DNA from: an uncultured Alphaproteobacteria bacterium
GTDB taxonomy: Bacteria > Pseudomonadota > Alphaproteobacteria > HIMB59 > GCA-002718135
Direction of reading: 5' to 3'
NCBI GenBank assembly: GCA_902518985.1
Contig: CABYIF010000004.1
Location: 1 to 51,721, forward strand
Length of the DNA: 51,721 nucleotides
The position numbers were made by a program, and so were the translations under genes. A model generated the notes under the pieces. The model ran no database searches, had not been told where the DNA came from, and was given only the letters and a program-made list of their open reading frames with translations. Each line of letters opens with the position of its first letter. The stretch's first letter is position 1. This document shows, one piece after another, positions 4,193 to 45,005 of the stretch.

Positions 4193-5101
4193 ATGAAAAA
4201 ACTTCTTATGACAGTTGTAGCAATCGTATTTGCTACAAGTGCAGCCTTTGCTGAAAGATACGTTATGGTAACTCACGGTGAAGGTAAAGATCCTTTCTGG
4301 CCAGTTGTGCAAAAGGGTGGTGAAGATGCAGCTAGAGCAATCGGTGCTGATTTCGAATACATCTACAACCCTTCAGCTGATATGGCAGATATGGCAAGTT
4401 CAATTCAAGCTGCTGCTGCGACTCAGCCAGACGGTATGGTAATTTCACTACCTGATCCAGATGCGTTAGGCCCTGCAATTAAAGCTGCTGTTGCCGCTGG
4501 TGTACCAGTTGTAACTATGAACTCAGGTCTTGAAAACTCAGCTGCTTTAGGTGCTTTAATGCACGTTGGTCAGCCTGAGTATCTTGCTGGTCAAAAAGCT
4601 GGTGCTAGAGCTGCTTCTGAAGGAGCTACTAAAGCACTATGTATGATTCAAGAAGCATACAATACTGCTCTTGTTGATAGATGTGAAGGTTATGGAGAAG
4701 CTGTTCCAATGGAATTTACAGATACTACTTCTGACCCAGCAACTATCGTAACTCGTGCAACTGCTGCTTTACAAGCTAACCCAGACGTTGATGCAGTTCT
4801 ATCAGTAGGACCTCACGTTTGTGAAGGTGTTGCAAAAGCAATGGATGATCTTGGTATGAGTGGTATTCACCACGCATGTTTCGATTTAAGCCCAGGTGTT
4901 ATGGACTTAATCGGAGCTGGTAAAGTTTCATTTACTATTGACCAACAACAAAGACTACAAGGCTATATGCCAATTATAGTTCTACACTTATACAATAACA
5001 GTGCAGGATTATTACCAGGTGCAAATATTCCATCTGGACCAGGATTTGTTGATAAGTCTAATGCTGCTTCAGTTTCAGCGTTAGCTGGTATCGATAGATA
5101 A
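4193..5101 (+). CDS. sugar ABC transporter periplasmic substrate-binding protein (RbsB/FrcB-like)
   Basis: Signal peptide MKKLLMTVVAIVFATSAAFA; periplasmic-binding-protein fold (DPFWPVVQKGGEDAARAIGADFEY, PDGMVISLPDPDALGPAIKAAVAAGVPVVTMNSG). Confidence 0.9.
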   Translation: MKKLLMTVVAIVFATSAAFAERYVMVTHGEGKDPFWPVVQKGGEDAARAIGADFEYIYNPSADMADMASSIQAAAATQPDGMVISLPDPDALGPAIKAAVAAGVPVVTMNSGLENSAALGALMHVGQPEYLAGQKAGARAASEGATKALCMIQEAYNTALVDRCEGYGEAVPMEFTDTTSDPATIVTRATAALQANPDVDAVLSVGPHVCEGVAKAMDDLGMSGIHHACFDLSPGVMDLIGAGKVSFTIDQQQRLQGYMPIIVLHLYNNSAGLLPGANIPSGPGFVDKSNAASVSALAGIDR

Positions 5102-43400: not shown

Positions 43401-43508
43401 ATATAATTTCCTATAAAACTTAGATATATTGGCATATGCATTTTTTGCATACTTATTTTTACATTTTGAAACTTAATAAATTAAAGAATTAAATTATATA
43501 CATCATTA

Positions 43509-43557
43509 CGTTCATCACTCTTAGGAGTGACGGAAGTAGACGAAAGTCGAAGGAACG
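43509..43557 (+). ncRNA. glnA-type glutamine riboswitch aptamer, copy 1
   Basis: P1 CGTTC(43509-43513)/GAACG(43553-43557); P2 TCACTC-TTAG-GAGTGA; conserved CGGAAGTAG; P3 GAC-GAAA-GTC; conserved CGAAGGAACGC. Upstream of amt. Confidence 0.85.
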
Positions 43558-43575
43558 CATGCTAAGTTATTAAAT

Positions 43576-43625
43576 CGTTCAATCTGAATTTATTCAGATC
43601 GGAAGTAGGTAATACCGAAGGAACG
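43576..43625 (+). ncRNA. glnA-type glutamine riboswitch aptamer, copy 2
   Basis: P1 CGTTC(43576-43580)/GAACG(43621-43625); P2 ATCTGAA-TTTA-TTCAGAT; conserved CGGAAGTAG; P3 GGT-AAT-ACC; conserved CGAAGGAACGC. Stems differ from copy 1 but keep pairing. Confidence 0.85.
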
Positions 43626-43666
43626 CGGATCTTATATATTAATTTCCATAGCGACGCATGAATAGT

Positions 43667-43693
43667 AACACACTGCTCACGGTGAGCTGTGTT
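43667..43693 (+). promoter_or_regulatory. hairpin in the putative riboswitch expression platform
   Basis: AACACA-(CT bulge)-GCTCA-CGG-TGAGC-TGTGTT, between aptamer 2 and the amt RBS (GGAGG 43710-43714). Confidence 0.55.
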
Positions 43694-43718
43694 TTGTGAA
43701 ATTTATAATGGAGGATTA

Positions 43719-45005
43719 ATGTTAAAAAAATCTCTTTATTTAATTGGAATAGTATCTTGTTTTTTACTATTTAGCTCTCATGCTAGAGCAGAAGTAGATG
43801 CTGAAGTAGCATATATTTTAAATACATTTTCATTTTTAGTTTGTGGTTTCCTAGTGATGTGGATGGCTGCAGGTTTCTTATTTTTAGAGTCAGGTCTTGT
43901 TACTACTAGAAGTGTTTCAACTATTGCTGCTAAAAATATTGGCAAGTTTGCAATAGTTTCTATTGTTTTTTATTTATTTGGATACAATTTAGGTTACGGA
44001 GTAGAAGAAGGCGGTATTTTAGGTTTTCCTTCATTGTGGACTGATAATACATCTATAGAAACAGGATATTCAGATGCCTCAGATTGGTTTTTTCAGGCCT
44101 TATTTGTATGTGCAACAGTATCAATTGTATCTGGTGCAGTTGCTGAAAGAATTAAAATTTGGCCTTTTTTTGTTTTTGCTGCAATATTAGGTGGTTTTAT
44201 ATATCCTATACAGATGGGATGGGAGTGGGGAGGTGGTTGGCTTGATGCTCTAGGCTTTTCTGATTTTGCTGGATCTACATTAGTTCATGCATGTGGTGGA
44301 TCTGCAGCTTTAGCAGGTGTTATCTTACTTGGGCCAAGGTTAGGTAGATTTACAGAATCAGGTGAGCCAGCAAATATGGCTCCATTTGCACCTTCTTCAA
44401 TTCCATTAGTTACTCTAGGCACTTTCATTTTATGGATGGGTTGGTATGGTTTTAATGGTGGATCGCAACTAGCATTGGGCTCCTATGAAGATGCAACCGC
44501 AATGTCTCAAATTTTTATGAATACGCAGTTGGCTGCGTGTGGCGGTTGTATGGCAGGAGCAATTATAACAAGAGTAATAGGTGGTAAAACCGACATAGTA
44601 ATGATGCTTAATGGTGCTTTAGCAGGATTAGTATCTATAACAGCAGAGCCTTTGATGCCAACACCTCTTTTAGCAATCTTTATTGGAGCAATTGGTGGAG
44701 TAATTATGTATTATGGTACTAAGCTTCTTAATTCATTAAAACTTGATGATGTTGTAGGAGCTATTCCAGTTCATATGTTTGCAGGAATTTGGGGAACAAT
44801 GATAGTGCCTTTTACAAATCCTGAAGCATCATTTGGGATTCAGCTAATAGGTGTAATTTCAATTTGTTTATTTGTATTTATATTTTCTTACATAGTTATT
44901 TACATAATCAAATACACTATGGGACTTCGGATCAGTGAAGAAGCTGAGAAGCTTGGTACTGATAAAGCTGAAGTAGGAGTAATAGCCTACTCTATACGTG
45001 ATTAA
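43719..45005 (+). CDS. amt: ammonium transporter (Amt family)
   Basis: Signal-like N-terminus, FLFLESGLV, STLVHACGGSAALAGVILLGPRLGRF, LGTFILWMGWYGFNGGS, DDVVGAIPVHMFAGIWGT. ATG 43719 has a GGAGG RBS; the track start lies inside the upstream hairpin. Confidence 0.95.
   Translation: MLKKSLYLIGIVSCFLLFSSHARAEVDAEVAYILNTFSFLVCGFLVMWMAAGFLFLESGLVTTRSVSTIAAKNIGKFAIVSIVFYLFGYNLGYGVEEGGILGFPSLWTDNTSIETGYSDASDWFFQALFVCATVSIVSGAVAERIKIWPFFVFAAILGGFIYPIQMGWEWGGGWLDALGFSDFAGSTLVHACGGSAALAGVILLGPRLGRFTESGEPANMAPFAPSSIPLVTLGTFILWMGWYGFNGGSQLALGSYEDATAMSQIFMNTQLAACGGCMAGAIITRVIGGKTDIVMMLNGALAGLVSITAEPLMPTPLLAIFIGAIGGVIMYYGTKLLNSLKLDDVVGAIPVHMFAGIWGTMIVPFTNPEASFGIQLIGVISICLFVFIFSYIVIYIIKYTMGLRISEEAEKLGTDKAEVGVIAYSIRD

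Follow-up and report, generated by a model that had tools for sequence, protein, structure and literature searches.

The leader of the ammonium transporter gene amt in the 51.7-kb stretch of DNA analysed here (the window; 29.8% GC) contains two glutamine aptamers in tandem, and comparison with related loci points to a helix, P0, that encloses the second aptamer and draws both copies into one module. We put at about 55% the probability that this leader works as a glutamine riboswitch in which two aptamers share one platform and which switches OFF through P0 and its 3' strand, element S. The original prediction of a tandem of glutamine aptamers holds, but is amended in that the pair resembles a single integrated module built on a common platform rather than two switches side by side. 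The features of the leader are:

43508..43661, + strand, whole module (aptamer 1, L, aptamer 2, P4, S), delimited by the identical amt1/amt2 leader tracts described below
43509..43557, + strand, glutamine aptamer 1 (RF01739), P1 43509-43513 / 43553-43557
43558..43575, + strand, linker L, CATGCTAAGTTATTAAAT, 5' strand of P0, beginning with the linchpin C of aptamer 1
43576..43625, + strand, glutamine aptamer 2 (RF01739), P1 43576-43580 / 43621-43625
43627..43647, + strand, P4, a small hairpin (GGA...UCC) separating aptamer 2 from S, seen in the RNAalifold consensus for the amt1, amt2 and cpag classes
43648..43660, + strand, element S, ATAGCGACGCATG, 3' strand of P0 (99.6% canonical pairs in 119 tandems)
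43662..43697, + strand, hairpin H, gene-specific, with terminator-like matches, conserved U-tract absent
43710..43714, + strand, Shine-Dalgarno GGAGG of amt, from the sequence
43719..45005, + strand, amt, ammonium transporter of 428 aa, ATG at 43719 (PF00909, E 1.7e-99)

When the window was scanned against all Rfam 15 families (cmscan), exactly two matches at or above gathering were obtained, both to RF01739, Glutamine (cut-off 35 bits): 43507-43561 for aptamer 1 (63.1 bits, E 1.1e-11) and 43574-43629 for aptamer 2 (60.7 bits, E 5e-11). Both copies cover positions 1-53 of the 53-position model with no non-canonical pair marked, and in the RF01739 alignment the conserved junction, CGGAAGUA and GAAGGAACG, and the linchpin C are present in each. 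Thus, the glnA-type tandem lies where it had been placed, and its stems, as had been noted, differ in sequence and yet pair (P2, TCACTC/GAGTGA versus ATCTGAA/TTCAGAT; P3, GAC/GTC versus GGT/ACC). The Downstream-peptide family RF01704, for which a check had also been proposed, had no match in the window. The PF00909 match bears out the ammonium transporter named as the downstream neighbour, and the nearest Amt relatives come from ‘uncultured Alphaproteobacteria’ genomes (88-94% identity), in agreement with the proposed host. The extent first given, 43509-43627, takes in both aptamers but ends too early: the conserved unit continues to 43661, and the linker and 3' flank, which outside the aptamers are the best-conserved parts of this unit, had been overlooked.

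These two parts are the strands of P0. To describe them we used 119 distinct tandems from fetched loci of one marine alphaproteobacterial family, comprising 43 amt1, 40 amt2, 15 glnA and 21 CP-ATP-grasp (cpag) leaders. With the linchpin C of copy 1 taken as its first base, the linker has a length of 17-18 nt in all 119, and S, which begins about 20 nt 3' of copy 2, is complementary to it. The resulting helix encloses copy 2 and consists of CAUGC:GCAUG and AGUUAU:AUARCU; in the window, 43656-43660 pair with 43558-43562 and 43648-43652 with 43566-43570. P0 was found in each of the glnA, amt1, amt2 and cpag leader sets by RNAalifold run class by class, and P4 is limited to the amt and CP-ATP-grasp classes. 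Pairs were counted from anchoring motifs, the MAFFT alignment placing the glnA linker one base out. In these counts, which come from related sequences and are not independent, the outer 5 bp are canonical in 119/119 tandems and each of the inner 6 bp in at least 98%, the third inner pair being a U-G wobble in 104 of the 119. Over all P0 pairs 99.6% are canonical, compared with 10-34% after a slide of 1-3 nt, a control that is partial in that the anchoring motifs favour the true register. Shuffle tests on eight sequences gave p values from about 0 to 0.016. Against the P0 model, the columns are nearly invariant and offer few compensatory changes (22 L/S combinations). Stronger evidence comes from single-copy riboswitches: beside those of the same family and of a second family, f10, L and S are both absent.

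The same observations bear on whether L and S might act as DNA, as an inverted repeat to which a regulator binds, instead of pairing as an RNA helix. They are indeed arranged as a spaced inverted repeat with GCATG at either end, but the U-G at the third inner pair in 104/119 tandems suits RNA and would be a mismatch in DNA, and the repeat accompanies tandem aptamers only. We therefore consider a DNA site very improbable.

Many relatives have two consecutive amt genes, each with its own tandem (L041-L099, at about 2740-2970 and 4780-5010). In three of them (L042, L043 and L066), out of 31 loci with such an amt pair, the leader of amt1 matches that of amt2 base for base over 152-153 nt from CGTTC. 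The identical tracts start 1 nt before copy 1 and stop at the last base of GCATGA; the flanks outside them are about 56-63% alike. Identity stops at the 3' end of P0, which is therefore the 3' boundary of the conserved unit, and a tract ending exactly there fits a single dual-aptamer module better than a pair of independent switches. The identical module copies in these three genomes suggest that gene conversion has been at work. Together, the comparisons among relatives support the aptamers, P0, the module limits, their conservation and the gene targets described below.

Two independent glutamine riboswitches in series, forming a pseudo-cooperative pair in which P0 is a passive scaffold, would be a different arrangement of the same parts. 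A 2022 survey, which lists 157 tandem glutamine doublets and 4 triplets, classes Glutamine-I doublets in this way, with several platforms (PMC9481103), and viral tandems with short linkers have a Shine-Dalgarno hairpin after copy 2 only. In the leaders studied here, however, the region between the copies has neither a ribosome site nor a U-tract terminator, the linker varies little in length and is mostly used by P0, and L and S are restricted to tandems. No separate platform was seen for copy 1, the 3' flank of which pairs with S beyond copy 2. On balance, we think a pseudo-cooperative pair unlikely and favour the shared platform.

Glutamine riboswitches are also common in viral contigs (L148-L233), often upstream of small proteins, and some of these are tandem, with linkers of 7-10 nt; the linker motif of the family studied here was not found in the viral contigs searched. 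Of 93 viral leaders, 80 form a hairpin from the linchpin C onwards, in many sequence versions, and in most it masks the Shine-Dalgarno sequence. A helix at the linchpin C is thus the usual platform, and P0 takes the same place. The linchpin pair, G23-C60, is ligand-dependent (PMC11477058), and pairing of the linchpin C with the junction G by the ligand would explain ON switching.

For the amt leader, we propose that when glutamine is scarce P0 would form, S would be held and amt would be translated. Glutamine on aptamer 1 would draw the linchpin C into the aptamer and, once aptamer 2 at the far end is occupied too, P0 would be destabilised and S freed; the freed S would then build an inhibitory leader structure that lowers amt expression. 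Opening of P0 at the linchpin C, combined with an inhibitory free S, would give an OFF response suited to amt and glnA. We infer that the amt leader binds its ligand, which of its states glutamine favours, that its output is translational as opposed to transcriptional, and that its sign is OFF.

The sign is where folding models disagree with this proposal. Rewarding P1 formation in a nearest-neighbour simulation raises P0, opposite to what the OFF mechanism predicts. The same dual-aptamer module could thus be an ON switch, in which glutamine stabilises both P1 stems, these exclude pairing of the 3' P1 strand of copy 1 with the 5' P1 strand of copy 2, P0 forms and the ribosome site is freed. 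In the simulation, a ligand bonus raises the outer P0 pairs from 0.82 to 0.99 in amt1, from 0.64 to 0.96 in amt2 and from 0.18 to 0.44 in glnA, and lowers pairing of S with the ribosome site; moreover, the glutamine riboswitches tested to date are ON switches (PMC6316151). Yet the modelled accessibility of the ribosome site is nearly unchanged, the model contains no tertiary contacts, and more ammonium uptake and more GlnA when glutamine is plentiful would be physiologically implausible. An ON sign therefore seems to us to have a small chance of being correct, and OFF switching through P0 and S remains our preferred reading.

How S might act was sought in the 3' part of the leader. Hairpin H follows S in every gene class. 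An intrinsic terminator as the platform was rejected: H is a real hairpin, but the next 8 nt contain mostly 0-5 U across relatives. H is thus probably not an intrinsic terminator, and the lack of a conserved U-tract makes translational control likelier than intrinsic termination. Masking of the amt ribosome site by S, although present in the minimum-energy fold, was also rejected as no stronger than for unrelated genes: 25-28% of background sites are as strong for amt and 72% for cpag. Only for glnA is it above chance (a median of 4.4% of background sites as strong); there, free S could cover the ribosome site and the start codon, with about -10 to -14 kcal/mol predicted in most. Pairing of S with H as an antiterminator was at chance level in glnA, amt1 and cpag and borderline in amt2, and was set aside.

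RF01739 is present in 106/110 genomes of the window's own family and in 0/52 of the order's other family, the order consisting of two families (PMC10734472). Given this division, and a 1.4-Mb genome in the other family that is 99% complete on a single contig, the riboswitch family is probably GCA-002718135 of the HIMB59/AEGEAN-169 order, the window's GC content being uninformative on this point. Few other alphaproteobacteria have RF01739, all in one further family, f10, and a phylum-wide sample of 399 genomes yielded no further carrier. The expected link to nitrogen genes was borne out, the family loci examined having nitrogen-related or CP-ATP-grasp genes downstream; the window's own genome has a second tandem, flanked by a P-II gene and glnA. 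Family f10 has mostly one RF01739 copy per genome, with CP-ATP-grasp downstream in most of those read, so that this gene is preceded by a tandem in one family and by a single copy in the other. CP-ATP-grasp (circularly permuted ATP-grasp, PF14403/PF04174; L012:1748-3055, L114:1590-2993) is little known, and its position downstream of glutamine riboswitches in both of these alphaproteobacterial families suggests that its function is tied to nitrogen. A short ORF that precedes the gene and runs into its start was considered and dropped, being confined to one subclade. Three genomes of the window's family (L006, L142, L146) have a different Amt type (MTLEELNVFVTTQ...) with a single glutamine aptamer and neither L nor S. 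A weak match of 31 bits, below gathering (G005:C47:10015-10071, L147), could be a decayed RF01739 copy.

GlnD is the usual proteobacterial glutamine sensor, and the T-loop motif YRGAEY of P-II holds the uridylylated tyrosine. Among genomes at least 90% complete, GlnD (PF08335) was found in 0/8 of the riboswitch-bearing family and in 6/6 of the sister family, all of the latter without a glutamine riboswitch; this pattern is one evolutionary contrast between two families and not fourteen independent ones. The YRGAEY motif is lost from P-II of the riboswitch family and kept in the sister-family proteins read (loci L001, on contig C35 of the window's own genome, and L274-L279). A single P-II gene is present in 8/8 riboswitch-family genomes, and two are present in 4/6 sister genomes. 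Loss of GlnD and of the uridylylation motif where the riboswitch occurs suggests that an RNA may have taken the place of the protein that senses glutamine. The fuller scenario, in which a whole marine alphaproteobacterial family swapped GlnD and PII uridylylation for a dual-aptamer, single-platform riboswitch copied before amt, glnA and an ATP-grasp gene, with P0 inverting ON to OFF, is a tentative one that we think somewhat more apt to fail than to hold. The reciprocal GlnD pattern is a clear case in which to test whether RNA has taken over the job of a protein sensor in genome-streamlined ocean bacteria.

The element described here is real and of a known kind. A 2010 study described glnA RNAs in tandem together with their nitrogen genes (Weinberg 2010, PMC2864571), and tandem glutamine riboswitches have already been linked to amt, glnA and PII genes (PMC2864571, PMC9481103); the tandem itself is therefore not new. 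What is new is the host group, the shared helix P0 and the suggested replacement of GlnD. We found no description of P0 in the literature, although an earlier notice in Ames and Breaker 2011 or Klahn 2018 is possible, and the main text of two papers on the clade (PMC10308909, PMC10734472) does not mention riboswitches.

Compared with the type 1 glnA RNA of RF01739, the two copies match the full model at all conserved core positions and share the link to amt, glnA and PII genes (PMC2864571); they differ in belonging to an alphaproteobacterial family, in having a linker of 17-18 nt whose pairing partner lies past copy 2, and in having no Shine-Dalgarno hairpin at the linchpin C. With the catalogued tandems of PMC9481103 they share two same-ligand aptamers in series before one gene, but there each aptamer has its platform whereas P0 indicates a single shared one here. 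If P0 is correct, the tandems of this family would be one regulated unit, contrary to their pseudo-cooperative filing. Two homologous aptamers, an apparently single platform and an extra-aptamer pairing that ties them together also recall the anatomy of the tandem glycine riboswitch. Ligand and fold are different, and in P0 it is the 3' flank that pairs with the linker, whereas the glycine pairing joins the leader to the linker. The Synechocystis gifB glutamine riboswitch is of the same aptamer class and comes from a lineage reported to be without known glutamine-sensing enzymes; it is an ON switch controlling a glutamine synthetase inhibitor, whereas the genes downstream here are amt or glnA (PMC6316151). 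The same work describes glutamine riboswitches as restricted to cyanobacteria and the links of the glnA motif to glutamine synthetase, PII and ammonium transporters as coming only from uncultured environmental sequences (PMC6316151). The data presented here give these environmental glnA-motif sequences a bacterial home and named genes.
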